Assembly: GCF_003086695.1 (NCBI RefSeq)
Contig: NZ_CP025999.1
Location: 2,087,680 to 2,151,679, forward strand
Length of the DNA: 64,000 nt
Reading direction: 5' to 3'
Source: Stenotrophomonas sp. SAU14A_NAIMI4_8
Lineage (GTDB): Bacteria > Pseudomonadota > Gammaproteobacteria > Xanthomonadales > Xanthomonadaceae
Notes under the pieces: generated by a model
Told to the model about the DNA's origin: nothing
What the model saw: only the letters and a program-made list of their open reading frames with translations
Databases searched by the model: none
Translations under genes and position numbers: made by a program
Shown: positions 37,147 to 49,626 of the stretch, piece after piece
Position numbering within the stretch: position 1 is the stretch's first letter
Layout of the letters: every line of letters begins with the position of its first letter

Positions 37147-37162
37147 TGCAAGCGGCGTGCCG
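37147..37162 (-). promoter_or_regulatory. sigma-54 promoter of fliEFGHIJK
   Basis: CGGCAC, 5 nt, TTGCA on the minus strand, about 48 nt upstream of the fliE ATG. It has the same layout as the fliL, flgB and flgG promoters. Confidence 0.85.
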
Positions 37163-41757: not shown

Positions 41758-42396
41758 TCATTCCAGCTCGTGCTGGTGGCGGGCGGCCAGCAGCAGCAGA
41801 TCGTTGGCGCGGCGGCAGCCCAGCGATTCCATCATGCGCGCGCGATGGGTCTCCACCGTCTTCACGCTGATGCCCAGGTCGGCGGCGATTTCCTTGTTGC
41901 TTTCGCCCTTGCCGATCTGGCGCAGGATCTCGCGCTGGCGCGGCGACAGCGCGGCAATGCCGGTGGGCTTTTCGCGGCCCAGCATGGGCGCCAGCATCTT
42001 GGCCGAGATCTGCGGGCTCAGGAACACCTGGCCGGCATGGGCGGCGCGCAGGGCCAGTTCCAGTTCCTGCGGCGCGGCATCCTTCACCACGAACCCCACC
42101 GCGCCACGGTCCAGTGCATCGCGCACATGGGCGGCATCGTCATGCATGGTCATCATTACCACCCGGGTGCCGGGTGCGCGCAGGCGGATGTCGCTCAGCG
42201 CTTCCAGGCCGGTGCGACCGGGCAGGGAAAGGTCCATCAGTACCACGTCCGGTGCATGCTGCAGGGCCAGTTGCAGCGCCTGTTCGGCGTTGCTGGCTTC
42301 GGCCACCAGCTGCACGTCGGCAAACCCCTGCAGCAGCCGCGCCAGGCCGGCGCGAACCAGGGTGTGATCGTCGACGATGAGAACTCGCACAGGCAC
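41758..42396 (-). CDS. NarL/FixJ-type response regulator
   Basis: 212 aa. Receiver with phospho-Asp55 (VVLMDLSLPGRTG) and a LuxR-type HTH (LSPRQREILRQIGKGESNKEIAADLGISVKTVETH). No sensor kinase is adjacent. It lies between rpoN2 and the PilZ-like gene and may regulate rpoN2 or the fliS group. 85 bp separate it from the PilZ-like stop. Confidence 0.9.
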   Translation of the reverse strand: MPVRVLIVDDHTLVRAGLARLLQGFADVQLVAEASNAEQALQLALQHAPDVVLMDLSLPGRTGLEALSDIRLRAPGTRVVMMTMHDDAAHVRDALDRGAVGFVVKDAAPQELELALRAAHAGQVFLSPQISAKMLAPMLGREKPTGIAALSPRQREILRQIGKGESNKEIAADLGISVKTVETHRARMMESLGCRRANDLLLLAARHQHELE

Positions 42397-43892: not shown

Positions 43893-45308
43893 TCAGCCGC
43901 TCAGCTGGGCCAACTGCTGCGACAGGGCGCTGCTGCTCTGCTGCAGCTTGCCCATCAGGGTGTCCAGCGCCAGGAACTGCTTTTTGTAGCGCTCGGCGAC
44001 GCCTTCCATGCGGGTGTCCAGGTCGGCGCGGCGCTTGTCGATGTCGGTCAGCGTCTTGTTCAGGCTGTTGGTGCGCGAAACGAAGGCGCCTTCCTTGCCG
44101 ACCGTGGTGCTGACATAGCCGTCGACCATCGTATAGAGCTTGCCGGCGCCGCCGGTGTCGCCGGTAATCGCCTGGCGGATCTTTTCCGGCTGGTTGGCCA
44201 ATGCCGCGGCAAACTTGGTGGTGTCCAGCACCAGGCTGCCGTCGGCATTGGGGTAGCCGCGCGTCTGCAGGCCCAGCGTCTTCGGGTCCAGGCCTTCGGC
44301 TGACAGATCCTTCAGGATGCTGCTCATCTGGGCGCGCAGCTGGCTCATGGCGCCACGCATCTGCGCATCGCCGGTCAGCGACGCGGCTTCCTTGGTCTTG
44401 GCGTCGTAGGCGGTTTCGGTGTTGATGGCCGCCAACGCCGCGTTGTAGGCAGTCACGAACTCCTGCATCACCTTGGTGGCGGCAGTCGTATCGGTGCTGA
44501 TCGTGACCGTGCTTTCACCCTTCATCTTCAGGTTCAGGGTCAGGCCGGGCACCGCGTCAGCCACCGTGTTGCTGGCACTGACAACTTCCACGCCGTCGAT
44601 GGTCAGCTTGGCGTCCTTCGCAGCGGTGTTCTCTTTCAGGCTGCCGACCAGCGAGGTCAGGCCCGGATCACTACCCGCATATTCAAGCTTGATGGCGTTG
44701 GCAGCGCCGGTCTTCTCCTGGGCGATGGACAGGTACTGGTTGTCGCCCGAGCTGATCAGCGTTGCCTGCACGCCTTCCTTGCGGCCGGCGGCATCGATCT
44801 TGTTGCGGACCGTGGTAAGCGTGTCGCCTTCCTCGACCTCGACGTTCATGGTCTTGGCCTTGTCACCCACGCCAACGGTCAGCGTCAAGGTTCCGGCGGC
44901 AAAGGTCTGGGTCTTCGGCACCGAGGTATCGGCAATCAGCTTGTGCGCGGTGGCCAGTTCCAGCACGTTCACCTTGTGCGTGCCATTCGACGCGGCGGCC
45001 TTGGTCGTGCCTACGTCATACAGCGCCACCGTTGCCGTCAGGATCTCGTCGGCGTTGTTGGTGCCGCCCTTGCTGGCGGTCACGGTGCGGGTGTCGAAGG
45101 CGGTGGACGCCTTCAATGCGGTCAATGCGGTCTTCAGCTTGTCGAAGGCCGAGGTGATGGTGCCCACCGACGAAAGCTGCAGCTTTGCCTTGGACTGCTG
45201 AAGGTTCAGCGCATTGTCTGCGGGCTTGCGGTCGGCTGCCACCAACTGGCTGACCATGCCGGAAATATCCAGGCCCGAGCCAATGCCACCGTATCCAAAG
45301 TCTGCCAC
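43893..45308 (-). CDS. fliD: flagellar filament cap protein FliD
   Basis: 471 aa. N-terminal FliD domain (GYGGIGSGLDISGMVSQLVAADRKP), central variable domains and a C-terminal coiled-coil segment (DLDTRMEGVAERYKKQFLALD). Caps the filament and promotes flagellin folding. The start is GTG at 45308, with AGGAG 7 nt upstream. The longer frame to 45335 also starts GTG but has no such site. It has its own FliA promoter. Confidence 0.95.
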   Translation of the reverse strand: MADFGYGGIGSGLDISGMVSQLVAADRKPADNALNLQQSKAKLQLSSVGTITSAFDKLKTALTALKASTAFDTRTVTASKGGTNNADEILTATVALYDVGTTKAAASNGTHKVNVLELATAHKLIADTSVPKTQTFAAGTLTLTVGVGDKAKTMNVEVEEGDTLTTVRNKIDAAGRKEGVQATLISSGDNQYLSIAQEKTGAANAIKLEYAGSDPGLTSLVGSLKENTAAKDAKLTIDGVEVVSASNTVADAVPGLTLNLKMKGESTVTISTDTTAATKVMQEFVTAYNAALAAINTETAYDAKTKEAASLTGDAQMRGAMSQLRAQMSSILKDLSAEGLDPKTLGLQTRGYPNADGSLVLDTTKFAAALANQPEKIRQAITGDTGGAGKLYTMVDGYVSTTVGKEGAFVSRTNSLNKTLTDIDKRRADLDTRMEGVAERYKKQFLALDTLMGKLQQSSSALSQQLAQLSG

Positions 45309-45365
45309 GTCGTTTCTCCTGGTAGCCGGGTCCACGCGCTGTGCGGTGGGCCGTTGTCAACGAAA

Positions 45366-45392
45366 ATAGCGGCCTGCGCCGCCGGGTCTTGA
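45366..45392 (-). promoter_or_regulatory. FliA promoter of fliD
   Basis: TCAA, exactly 15 nt, GCCGCTAT on the minus strand, about 57 nt before the fliD GTG. Confidence 0.8.
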
Positions 45393-45438
45393 GGACTTCG
45401 TTGATGCATGTCCTGTGCCACTGCCCACAAGGCGGTTC

Positions 45439-45454
45439 TGGCACGCCGGTTGCA
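45439..45454 (+). promoter_or_regulatory. orphan sigma-54 promoter, plus strand
   Basis: TGGCAC, GCCGG, TTGCA, preceded by C and with G after TGGCAC. It fits YTGGCACG-N4-TTGCW at every position, better than the fliE and fliL sites. It points away from fliD and toward the 3' end of the first flagellin; no plus-strand gene lies downstream. Confidence 0.75.
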
Positions 45455-45507
45455 GGAGGGTAGGAGCAGGGTGCGGGTAGGTTCACCGCGGGCTGCCGGG
45501 AGTCTGC

Positions 45508-45536
45508 AAAAAGCCCTCCCCCAAGGTAGGGGAGGG
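45508..45536 (-). terminator. rho-independent terminator after the flagellin genes
   Basis: On the minus strand CCCTCCCC/GGGGGAGGG followed by TTTTT. It lies about 210 nt past the first flagellin stop and just before the fliD promoter. Confidence 0.75.
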
Positions 45537-45698
45537 ATCAGGCTACTGACAATCGGGGGGAGACGAAGCCACCCGGTACGTACAGTCAAGAGTACAGCGC
45601 TGAAAGAGAGGTCCGCAGGGGCGGGCGATGCCAAGCCGGTTCGGGGTGTACCCGGGCCGGGCATGGCCGGCATCTGCGATGGCCTTGTCCTTCTGGTT

Positions 45699-45732
45699 GC
45701 CGCTACCGTCGGTGTGATCCGACGGTAGCGGC
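45699..45732 (+). terminator. strong hairpin, probable plus-strand terminator
   Basis: 14-bp perfect stem GCCGCTACCGTCGG with a 6-nt loop. It is followed on the plus strand by GCCTTCTT and on the minus strand by no T-run. It lies 17 bp past the first flagellin stop and may also protect that mRNA's 3' end. Confidence 0.55.
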
Positions 45733-45748
45733 GCCTTCTTGCCGTGGA

Positions 45749-46921
45749 TCAGCGCAGCAGGCTGAGCACGCCCTGCGGTACCTGGTTGGCCTGGGCCAGC
45801 ATGGCCGTACCGGCCTGCTGCAGGATCTGGGTACGGGTCAGTTCGGCGGTTTCCTTGGCGAAGTCGGTGTCCTTGATGCGGCTACGCGAAGCCGACAGGT
45901 TTTCCGACGAGGTCTGCAGGTTGGCCACGACCGAGGTGAAGCGGTTCTGGATCGCGCCGAGGTCGGCACGGGTGCTGTTGATCGCACTCAGGGCCTTGTC
46001 AACGATTTCCATCGACTGCTGCGCACCCTTCACGGTGGACACGTCGATCTTGTCGGCGAACTGCTTGGTCGCAGCGGCACCGGCGGTGAAGCCCGCAACG
46101 GTCGAAGAGAAGGCGGTTGCCACACCAGCGTCATTGACGCTGTCCTTGACCGAGGTCAGGGTCACTTCACCGGCCGCGTCGGTTTCGGCGTAGACGCCGG
46201 TTTCACCGATCTTGGCGTTGATGTGCGCGGCCAGTGCCTTGCCGGCGGCGGCTTCGTTGGCCGCAGCCAGGCCGACGCTCTTCACGTCCAGCTTGTCGAA
46301 GTTGACGACGGTGCCCTTGCTGTCGGTGATGGTGAAGGCAGCAATGGCGACGTCGGTGTTGTCAGCGCCGGTCACGGCATCGATGGTGGCGGTGGCGAAC
46401 TGCGCGCCGCCCAGGGCGTTGGCCTTGGCATCGATGGTCTTGTCGATGGCGATGGCCTGGCCTGCATTTGCACCGACCTGGAACAGCTGGCTGGAGAACG
46501 AACCGTCCAGCAGCTTGGTGCCGTTGAAGTCCGACTGCTTGGCGACGCGGTCGATTTCCGAAACCAGCTGGGTCACTTCGGCCTGCAGCGCCTTGCGATC
46601 GCTGGCGGAGTTGGTGGCGTTGGCGGCCTGCACCGACAGCTCGCGGACTCGCTGCAGGTTGTTGCCGATTTCGGTCAGCGAACCTTCGGCGACCTGGGCC
46701 AGCGAGATGCCGTCGTTGGCATTGCGGATGGCCACGTCGGTACCGCGGATCTGGGTGCCGAAACGCTCGGAGATGGCCAGACCGGCGGCGTCGTCCTTGG
46801 CGCTGTTGATACGCGAGCCCGAGGACAGGCGCTGGATCGTGGTGGCCAGGGAGGCGCCGCTGGTGCTCAGGTTGCGCTGAGCATTCAGGGACATGGTGTT
46901 GGTGTTGATGACTTGTGCCAT
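45749..46921 (-). CDS. fliC: flagellin (copy nearest fliD)
   Basis: 390 aa. Conserved flagellin N-terminus (MAQVINTNTMSLNAQRNLST) and C-terminus (TDFAKETAELTRTQILQQAG) with a short variable centre at about 175-290. The first ~175 residues match the middle flagellin with a single difference (Ala/Ser in TNSxSD). AAGGA precedes the start. A 27-bp hairpin lies in the gap upstream and no promoter was seen there, so it may depend on readthrough from the first flagellin of the array. Confidence 0.96.
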   Translation of the reverse strand: MAQVINTNTMSLNAQRNLSTSGASLATTIQRLSSGSRINSAKDDAAGLAISERFGTQIRGTDVAIRNANDGISLAQVAEGSLTEIGNNLQRVRELSVQAANATNSASDRKALQAEVTQLVSEIDRVAKQSDFNGTKLLDGSFSSQLFQVGANAGQAIAIDKTIDAKANALGGAQFATATIDAVTGADNTDVAIAAFTITDSKGTVVNFDKLDVKSVGLAAANEAAAGKALAAHINAKIGETGVYAETDAAGEVTLTSVKDSVNDAGVATAFSSTVAGFTAGAAATKQFADKIDVSTVKGAQQSMEIVDKALSAINSTRADLGAIQNRFTSVVANLQTSSENLSASRSRIKDTDFAKETAELTRTQILQQAGTAMLAQANQVPQGVLSLLR

Positions 46922-48283: not shown

Positions 48284-49504
48284 TCAGCGCTGCAACAGGC
48301 TGAGCACGTTCTGGGGTACCTGGTTGGCCTGGGCCAGCATCGCCGTGCCGGCCTGCTGCAGGATCTGCGTGCGGGTCAGTTCAGCGGTTTCCTTGGCGAA
48401 GTCGGTATCGCGGATGCGGCTGCGCGAAGCGGACAGGTTCTCCGAGGAGGTCTGCAGATTGGCCACCACCGAGGTGAAGCGGTTCTGGATGGCGCCGAGG
48501 TCGGCGCGTACGCTGTTCACCGACTCCAGTGCCTTGTCGACGATGGACAGGGCCTTCTGCGCGCCCTCGGCGCTGCTGACGTCCAGGTCCTTGACGAAGG
48601 TGCTGGTGACGCCGGTCAGGGTGCCGCCGTTGGTGCTGGACTGGGTCAGGCCGACGTTGGCCAGATCGGTCGGGACCGCACCGGTGACCGTGGAAGCGGG
48701 GCCCGCGGTACCCAGGGTGAAGGTCTGGCCATCCTTGACCGAGCTGAGGCTGATCACCCCGGCGTCGACCTTGGCCAGCACGCCGGTTTCGCCGATCTTG
48801 TTGTTGATCGCGGCGGCGGTGGCGGCGCTGATCGATTCACCGGCCTTGACCGAGATATCGCCGATGTTGACCGTGGTGGCGCTGCCGCCCGGCGGGGTGA
48901 CGATGACCTGCAGCTGCGAGTAGGTGGTGTCCGCAGCAGCCTTGTCGGTGGCCAGCGCGGTGCCAACGAAGGCGTTTGCGAAGTTGACCGCGCCCAGCGC
49001 ATCGGCCTTGGCGTTGACCACGCTGTTGATCGCGATCGCCTGGCCGGCATTGGCGCCCACCTGGAACAGCTGGCTGGTGAAGCTGCCGTCCAGCAGCTTG
49101 GTGCCGTTGAAGTCGCTCTGCTTGGCAACGCGGTCCACTTCCGAAACCAGCTGGGTCACTTCGGCCTGCAGCGCCTTGCGGTCGCTGGCCGAGTTGGTGG
49201 CGTTGGAGGCCTGCACGGCCAGTTCGCGGATACGCTGCAGGTTGTTGCCGACTTCGCTCAGCGAACCTTCGGCGACCTGGGCCAGCGAGATGCCGTCGTT
49301 GGCGTTGCGGATGGCCACGTCCAGGCCGCGGATCTGGGTGCCGAAGCGCTCCGAGATCGCCAGGCCGGCGGCGTCGTCCTTCGCGCTGTTGATGCGCGAA
49401 CCAGACGACAGGCGCTGGATGGTGGTGGCCAGCGAGTTGCCGCTGGTGCTCAGGTTGCGCTGAGCGTTGAGCGACATCGTATTGGTGTTGATTACCTGTG
49501 CCAT
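48284..49504 (-). CDS. fliC: flagellin (first transcribed copy)
   Basis: 406 aa, the most divergent of the three (NSLATTI, IRGLDVAIRN, LSEVGNNLQRIRELAVQ, C-terminal QNVLSLLQR). Flagellins with distinct sequences in one filament are usual in polar flagellates. The start at 49504 has AGGAG 8 nt upstream and lies behind a FliA promoter; the frame is open further upstream but through the promoter. First of the flagellin array. Confidence 0.96.
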   Translation of the reverse strand: MAQVINTNTMSLNAQRNLSTSGNSLATTIQRLSSGSRINSAKDDAAGLAISERFGTQIRGLDVAIRNANDGISLAQVAEGSLSEVGNNLQRIRELAVQASNATNSASDRKALQAEVTQLVSEVDRVAKQSDFNGTKLLDGSFTSQLFQVGANAGQAIAINSVVNAKADALGAVNFANAFVGTALATDKAAADTTYSQLQVIVTPPGGSATTVNIGDISVKAGESISAATAAAINNKIGETGVLAKVDAGVISLSSVKDGQTFTLGTAGPASTVTGAVPTDLANVGLTQSSTNGGTLTGVTSTFVKDLDVSSAEGAQKALSIVDKALESVNSVRADLGAIQNRFTSVVANLQTSSENLSASRSRIRDTDFAKETAELTRTQILQQAGTAMLAQANQVPQNVLSLLQR

Positions 49505-49599
49505 GGGGTCGTCTCCTCTTATATGGAACCCGTTGGTGAATGAAACGAAGCGCCGCCTGTTTCTTTTGTTTGGCTGTGTGCTTCGCCGTTGCCAAATGA

Positions 49600-49626
49600 A
49601 TAACGGCGCTTTGTCAACAACCTTTA
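49600..49626 (-). promoter_or_regulatory. FliA promoter of the flagellin array
   Basis: TAAA, exactly 15 nt, GCCGTTAT on the minus strand, giving a leader of about 88 nt. Confidence 0.85.

Follow-up and report, generated by a model that had tools for sequence, protein, structure and literature searches.

The question raised by this locus is what a perfect sigma-54 promoter is for when it points into the gap between two flagellar genes on the opposite strand and has no gene of its own downstream. The features that frame it, in the 64-kb stretch of Stenotrophomonas DNA analysed here (the window), are:

20520, 22538, 56899, 60530 and 62060: sigma-54 sites with one mismatch, upstream of probable flhF, flhA, flgG, flgB and flgA
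43893–45308, minus strand: fliD, with a GTG start and AGGAG
45405–45421, minus strand: divergent sigma-54 site of fliD, GTGGCACAGGACATGCA
45438–45454, plus strand: perfect -24/-12 sigma-54 site, CTGGCACGCCGGTTGCA, no gene downstream
45749–46921, minus strand: fliC3 flagellin, last gene of the fliC1C2C3 operon (naming after the accessible part of PMC8998449)

The plus-strand site is the sole match without mismatch to YTGGCACGNNNNTTGCW in the window, which confirms the perfect orphan site reported in a preliminary description of this DNA. It had also been said to lie between two minus-strand genes with no plus-strand gene after it, and this is borne out; fliD (GTG at 45308) and fliC3 (stop at 45749), both on the minus strand, flank a gap of 440 bp. 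As in the sigma-54 class, GG and GC stand ten bases apart within TGGCAC-N5-TTGCW. The 4.48-Mb genome holds 4 perfect matches to YTGGCACGNNNNTTGCW versus 0 for the reversed pattern; of the other three, two lie upstream of glnA and of a TROVE/Ro-type gene (both recognised from their translations) and one upstream of a short ORF. With up to 2 mismatches the window has 14 matches against 9.7 expected, a number reached in 8 of 100 shuffles, and enrichment at this level is not clear. Five of the six one-mismatch sites are those listed above, the gene names being our assignments by recognition; behind the sixth, at 37147, no ORF was found. Since the one-mismatch sites mostly precede flagellar genes, YTGGCACGNNNNTTGCW marks plausible promoters in this region, among which the plus-strand site is the orphan.

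A search for the gap in 91 Stenotrophomonas genomes gave matches in 72, and 70 of these loci were fetched (G014 and G023 being left out); fliD is present in all 70 and a flagellin C-terminus in 69, L061 being the exception. The fetched loci comprise 52 from genomes that bear the structured element described below (L001–L052) and 18 from element-negative genomes (L053–L070). All 52 element-bearing loci retain the plus site, 40 with 0 and 12 with 1 mismatch, so that aligning relatives, the check on promoter conservation suggested in the preliminary description, speaks for the promoter. No site within 2 mismatches is found in the 18 element-negative loci, where the nearest match has 3 (L059), or in any of the 13 Pseudoxanthomonas/Luteimonas loci examined. 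In an alignment of 50 unique sequences both boxes, together with the GG that follows, carry 1.7–2 bits per column, the spacer 0.4–1.1, most of the flanks 0.25–1.3 and the G-rich start region 1.2–2; TTGCAGG and the G-rich start region are retained as in a working promoter. Five duplicate loci of the 52 were dropped before counts were made; alignment A1 omits L012, which the pattern missed, and L050, and alignment A3 omits L051, which is one base shorter. Judged from these alignments, the plus promoter is under selection.

The divergent minus-strand site of fliD, which the preliminary description overlooked, is present in all 52 element-bearing Stenotrophomonas loci with 1–3 mismatches and in 13/13 Pseudoxanthomonas/Luteimonas loci with 2–3; the 18 element-negative loci also carry it (0–3 mismatches over these and the Pseudoxanthomonas/Luteimonas loci together). 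By eye, and by comparison with the sigma-28 consensus, fliD seems in addition to have a sigma-28-like promoter at 45365–45400 on the minus strand, TCAAGACC..GCCGCTAT, behind its sigma-54 site; TAAAGACC..GCCGCTA was read by eye in other loci. A LuxR-type response regulator, possibly FsnR, was also seen by eye near fliD (41758–42396, minus strand), and FsnR is reported to bind the fliD promoter (PMC9600515, in its accessible part). In S. maltophilia, fliD and fliC1 drop in rpoN and fleQ mutants, and fliC in a fliA mutant (PMC8229486, likewise).

What the plus promoter would drive is outlined by three features:

45465–45740, plus strand: predicted sigma-54 antisense RNA, extrapolated from the promoter
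45465–45497, plus strand: its 5' hairpin, GGCAG..UGCGG / CCGCR..CUGCC in maltophilia-type loci
45699–45732, strand not assigned: 14-bp hairpin immediately beyond the stop codon of fliC3, with the tail GCCTTCTTGCC

The predicted start, at about 45465, is placed by the -12 rule. No plus-strand reading frame is conserved among the aligned relatives, as would be the case for a non-coding RNA. Of the marks of a stand-alone small RNA the transcript would have its own promoter, on grounds of sequence and conservation, but not a conserved terminator on the same strand. The preliminary description had ended an RNA of about 275 nt at the 14-bp hairpin; the hairpin and its tail are there, but the pyrimidine-tailed form passes the pattern in 30/52 related loci (L010 and L013 are near-misses with similar tails). 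It is therefore not a conserved plus-strand terminator, and the end proposed for the 275-nt RNA is putative. Stop-proximal hairpins total 98 G-U versus 24 A-C pairs on the plus strand, but since these totals rest largely on one shared configuration they were not used for strand assignment.

At the other end of the predicted RNA, the variable pair of the 5' hairpin reads U-G 8 times, U-A 5 times and C-G twice on the plus strand in the 15 of 16 unique maltophilia-type sequences that were aligned, and on the minus strand is broken in 8 of the 15; in the window itself the outermost pair of this hairpin is A-C. A strand-neutral stem tally for this hairpin gives 20 G-U versus 4 A-C on the plus strand, although the stem finder used can pick stems other than those folded. 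Covariation does not stand out from shuffles (205/500), so the strand preference is a hint only. In most other loci a hairpin of different sequence folds at the same 5' place. Beyond it the plus RNA would run through the minus-strand terminator and then through a conserved element, the parts of which are:

45508–45536, minus strand: intrinsic terminator behind fliC3, with stem at 45514–45536 and U-tract at 45508–45512
45545–45586, minus strand: P2 helix around P3, ACUG/CAGU here and CUGUC/GGCAG in Pseudoxanthomonas, read by eye from per-sequence folds
45554–45575, minus strand: P3 hairpin of the fliC 3'UTR element, CGGR-N-GG-[AC]UUCGUCUC-CC-YCCG, with covariation

Read on the minus strand, the block of strong conservation downstream of the plus start consists of P2, P3 and then the terminator-like hairpin with its U-tract (45536–45508), a feature that the preliminary description had missed. 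The block lies in the flagellin 3'UTR and ends at a terminator-like hairpin, as would a 3'UTR-derived small RNA of the FliX type. A stretch of 1.9 kb contains 3 terminator-like patterns where shuffled sequence would give 2.1; as the pattern alone is weak, the case for the minus-strand terminator is its conservation in the alignment. Among the 13 unique Pseudoxanthomonas/Luteimonas stems, to which the tally is confined as the pattern caught none of the Stenotrophomonas ones, there are 4 non-Watson-Crick pairs and all are G-U on the minus strand. For P3, 25 unique versions (L144, L150 and L178 dropped as chance matches) give 150/150 paired cells on the minus strand, with a variable pair that is GC in 12, AU in 10 and GU in 3, and 147/150 on the plus strand, where three are broken. 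The covariation score, which relatedness inflates, was reached by 1/500 shuffles for the minus and 0/500 for the plus strand. The loop [AC]UUCGUCUC is invariant in 52/52 Stenotrophomonas loci and in Pseudoxanthomonas/Luteimonas invariant except for its first base, while the stem pair and flanks vary; the versions were collected with a pattern that itself fixes most of the loop.

No Rfam 15 family matches the window at the gathering score, and the gap and six related loci give sub-threshold matches alone; those to HCV_5BSL1, ar7, Rev44, sucA-II, MS2 and anti-hemB fall far below that score and were judged to be chance. A riboswitch was discarded as a reading, no such family having been found.

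The element has a narrow distribution. A model built from Stenotrophomonas only (R1), used with strict filters that can lose weak matches, finds it in 52/91 Stenotrophomonas genomes, at one place in each (G079 has tandem copies), and in 23/297 genomes of the family, or 22 once G233 (E 0.008) is counted as false. A second model (R2) matches 56/398 genomes of the order at E up to 0.1, one of the weak matches being in a Stenotrophomonas genome (G081, E 0.004); 24 matches are strong, with E below 1e-20, and each of them adjoins flagellin and fliD. Six weak matches from outside the three genera were opened (L120–L125) and rejected, since neither flagellin nor fliD was present in the sequence fetched around them; L120–L122 have little in common beyond a hairpin and a U-tract. 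A pattern scan of named genomes returned 49 stretches, in Stenotrophomonas (including one recorded as Pseudomonas hibiscicola), in Pseudoxanthomonas and in Luteimonas cucumeris, together with one contig labelled Bacillus subtilis and three stretches in unrelated organisms. The contig in question, recorded as B. subtilis SK7B5 (JAHREJ010000076.1; L140), carries the element and is probably the same as G072:C76, mislabelled or contaminated.

In 13/13 Pseudoxanthomonas/Luteimonas loci (one of them Luteimonas) the element stands behind a flagellin but the plus promoter is absent. Its presence thus does not depend on that promoter, and from this distribution the element may be the older of the two. 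Copies in Pseudoxanthomonas can stand behind several flagellins, and those behind the other flagellins in L094 and L095 keep the loop without a U-tract.

The strand to which the structure belongs is less clear-cut. P2/P3 folds are more stable on the minus strand in only 6/39 unique sequences, P3 covariation is as strong on the plus as on the minus strand, and the 5' hairpin favours the plus, while 4/4 wobble pairs of the 13 Pseudoxanthomonas/Luteimonas terminators fit the minus. We read this as a pair of overlapping RNAs in Stenotrophomonas and a single RNA in Pseudoxanthomonas/Luteimonas, and on this comparison the minus-strand flagellin 3'UTR has at least as good a claim to the conserved structured part as the plus RNA. 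The most widely conserved structured part is the flagellin 3'UTR, on the minus strand, and the plus RNA is most simply seen as its antisense partner.

A possible role for the 3'UTR is suggested by its loop, which matches the start of the operon's first flagellin gene:

45559–45566, minus strand: UCGUCUCC, made up of seven bases of the P3 loop and the first base of the stem, exactly complementary to the Shine-Dalgarno of fliC1
49509–49516, minus strand: fliC1 Shine-Dalgarno, GGAGACGA, 4 nt before the ATG (49504)
49601–49626, minus strand: sigma-28-like promoter of fliC1, TAAAGGTT..GCCGTTA, assigned by comparison with the consensus

The fliC1C2C3 genes form one operon transcribed from the fliC1 promoter (PMC8998449, in its accessible part). 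On either strand of the 64 kb, GGAGACGA occurs 2 times against 1.5 expected, one copy facing the P3 loop and the other forming the fliC1 Shine-Dalgarno. When the loop was paired with 236 ORF starts of the window (at least 100 codons, many of them not genes), fliC1 gave the best energy, -15.9 kcal/mol, with a runner-up at -15.6; 32 of 1000 shuffled leaders pair with the loop as well as fliC1 does. In the window fold six of the eight loop-side bases have unpaired probabilities of 0.61–1.0 and the last two of 0.18 and 0.02; on the Shine-Dalgarno side the fold leaves GACG open but not the first GGA. As an exposed seed the loop thus has complementarity and conservation, with partial exposure in that fold. 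A cofold of the loop with the fliC1 leader does not predict the contact because it cannot form kissing contacts. For comparison, three element-negative 3'UTRs tested have chance complements of 6–7 nt to their own Shine-Dalgarno. As candidate further targets of the loop, the genome has two places where GGAGACGAA stands just before an ATG.

Loop and Shine-Dalgarno occur together across genomes. A flagellin start behind GGAG is visible to the pattern in 69/91 Stenotrophomonas genomes; GGAGACGA is the reading in 52 of them, a set identical to the 52 element-bearing genomes (the sets were compared by eye). None of the 39 element-negative genomes has GGAGACGA before flagellin, the 17 visible to the pattern reading GGAGAAGTCCC, GGAGCACGGAA and similar. 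In the family sample 83/297 genomes have a visible flagellin start and 22 read GGAGACGA, again exactly the 22 element-bearing ones: 9 Stenotrophomonas, 12 Pseudoxanthomonas and 1 Luteimonas, 13 of them beyond the genus. The flagellin starts invisible to the pattern (22 Stenotrophomonas and 214 family genomes) are uninformative on this point. However, the fliC1 leaders of element-bearing genomes look homologous throughout, so both features may travel together and the co-occurrence may come from inheritance of one operon type; and since loop and Shine-Dalgarno are both invariant, they offer no compensatory change by which to test the pairing. The link to flagellin control proposed in the preliminary description is nevertheless strengthened by this complementarity. 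That description had found a real, conserved promoter and guessed the right pathway, and its overall interpretation is partly supported.

The same leaders (49504–49600 on the minus strand; L185–L198) fold into a long hairpin, which in most Stenotrophomonas reads GCGAAGC / GCUUCGU, and a weak hairpin lies over the fliC1 Shine-Dalgarno.

We propose that the fliC 3'UTR hairpin represses fliC1 translation and that a sigma-54 antisense RNA antagonises the hairpin, a reading to which we give a probability of about 0.4. Two RNAs would overlap head-on between fliD and fliC3. The sigma-28 message of fliC1C2C3 would terminate in the 3'UTR hairpin (P2/P3) and intrinsic terminator, and the P3 loop region would present UCGUCUCC for pairing in the cell with the Shine-Dalgarno GGAGACGA of the same operon's first gene. 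Whether it acts while still joined to the message or as a small RNA derived from the 3'UTR, P3 would repress fliC1 translation, so that the flagellin message would feed back on itself. The plus promoter, seen only in Stenotrophomonas and divergent from the fliD sigma-54 site, would drive a presumably RpoN-dependent non-coding RNA. Being perfectly antisense to P2/P3, this RNA could bind or displace the 3'UTR hairpin; alternatively it could act through RNase III cleavage or transcription collision. The predicted effect in either case is to lift fliC1 repression around the switch to filament synthesis. The plus RNA would also carry a Shine-Dalgarno-like GGGAGACGAAG. A further route, in which a plus-strand loop GAGACGAAG would free the fliC1 leader by pairing with CUUCGUUUC in that leader, was dropped, as the CUUCGUUUC stretch is not conserved in all leaders.

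A more specific version, which we hold only tentatively and with less confidence, is that of a self-targeting operon. Here the 3'UTR loop of the last gene would occupy the Shine-Dalgarno of the first, in cis (with the message looped) or in trans, and Stenotrophomonas would have added the sigma-54 antisense RNA as both hairpin antisense and Shine-Dalgarno mimic; the flagellar hierarchy would thereby time the release of flagellin translation.

Other explanations share much of this evidence. The element could be a mere terminator or stability hairpin, with a Shine-Dalgarno match that is chance inherited in one operon type and a plus promoter giving a minor antisense or interference transcript. 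The 32 in 1000 shuffled leaders, the chance expectation for two GGAGACGA per window and the leaders' overall homology would all suit this, yet the loop is invariant in 52/52 Stenotrophomonas and nearly so in Pseudoxanthomonas/Luteimonas despite change in stem and flanks, it persists without a U-tract behind other Pseudoxanthomonas flagellins (L094, L095), and the element accompanies GGAGACGA exactly in three genera; we consider this explanation unlikely, although it deserves to be kept in view. A touch less probable in our estimation is that the plus RNA is a free-standing, trans-acting small RNA of the sigma-54 class with targets elsewhere, whose overlap with the flagellin 3'UTR is incidental. 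It would have its own conserved promoter and a 5' hairpin that lies outside the minus transcript unit and has a variable pair fitting the plus strand, and P2/P3 folds favour the minus strand in only 6/39. Against it, the conserved body occurs without the promoter in all 13 Pseudoxanthomonas/Luteimonas loci, there is no conserved 3' end, and it is the minus strand that accommodates the wobble pairs seen in P3 and in the 13 Pseudoxanthomonas/Luteimonas terminators.

The remaining two readings make no use of a regulatory RNA. If the plus sigma-54 site were a DNA element of fliD control, bound RpoN holoenzyme could shape the fliD promoter that diverges from it without any functional RNA being made, and the two sites are indeed only 16 bp apart here and co-occur in 52/52 loci; but the 18 element-negative and 13/13 Pseudoxanthomonas/Luteimonas loci have the fliD site without the plus site, and conservation extends to TTGCAGG and the G-rich start region as it would in a working promoter, which makes this improbable. 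A small protein as the product of the plus transcript was likewise rejected and seems very improbable indeed: an 85-codon GTG ORF does lie behind the site in the window, but the same frame from the predicted start closes after 8–46 codons in several relatives, indels are not multiples of three, and no plus-strand frame is conserved among the relatives.

Flagellin is among the costliest proteins of a motile cell, and to our knowledge its post-transcriptional control is known in few bacteria. The proposed circuit of 3'UTR repressor and antisense antagonist has partial likenesses among known systems. FliX of E. coli likewise comes from the 3' end of a flagellin message, the fliC 3'UTR, and its overexpression lowers fliC mRNA (PMC10578931, in its accessible part); FliX, however, pairs inside coding sequences, whereas in the present case the sequence complementary to the loop is the Shine-Dalgarno of the first flagellin gene in the operon, and the model predicts an antisense partner. 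CJnc190/CJnc180 of Campylobacter jejuni target ptmG, and the accessible parts of the report give no tie to a flagellin 3'UTR (PMC8687705); with regard to such a cis-antisense antagonist pair, the plus promoter is found here and the predicted minus RNA would come from the fliC operon. Also in C. jejuni, CJnc230 (FlmE) and CJnc170 (FlmR) are RpoN- and FliA-dependent small RNAs with opposing effects on the filament, as proposed here, but FlmE is processed from flgE mRNA and represses the flgM and Cj1387c mRNAs, and in the accessible text the two are not described as antisense partners (PMC11187230). Within the same bacterial family, sX13 of Xanthomonas likewise sets C-rich hairpin loops against G-rich motifs near translation starts, although it is a separate gene downstream of polA and recognises 4G motifs, not one Shine-Dalgarno (PMC3771888, in its accessible part). 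The proposed circuit would work like the FliX, FlmE and sX13 precedents, as an analogue of them and not as an established member of any. A search of the open-access literature (titles and abstracts among the matches listed, subscription papers lying mostly outside its scope) returned no paper describing this circuit; the combination is novel, while its parts have precedents.

If the proposal is right, a clinically common genus has a complete circuit made up of a sense 3'UTR repressor, a target within the repressor's own operon and an antisense antagonist that fires one step earlier in the flagellar hierarchy. It would also suggest how an RNA element already in place can become a switch once a promoter has arisen on the strand facing it.

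Variation in the number of copies was seen as well. Gaps between flagellin genes in Pseudoxanthomonas (L081, L082, L091 and L136) contain extra copies of P3 with the same loop, those read having no U-tract terminator. In Stenotrophomonas sp. YIM B06876 (L050 / L177) one flagellin is followed by three tandem copies of the element at a spacing of 180 bp; the promoter duplication of L050, an exact repeat flanked by an N in the contig, is probably an assembly artefact, and the three copies of the element are also present in the named record.
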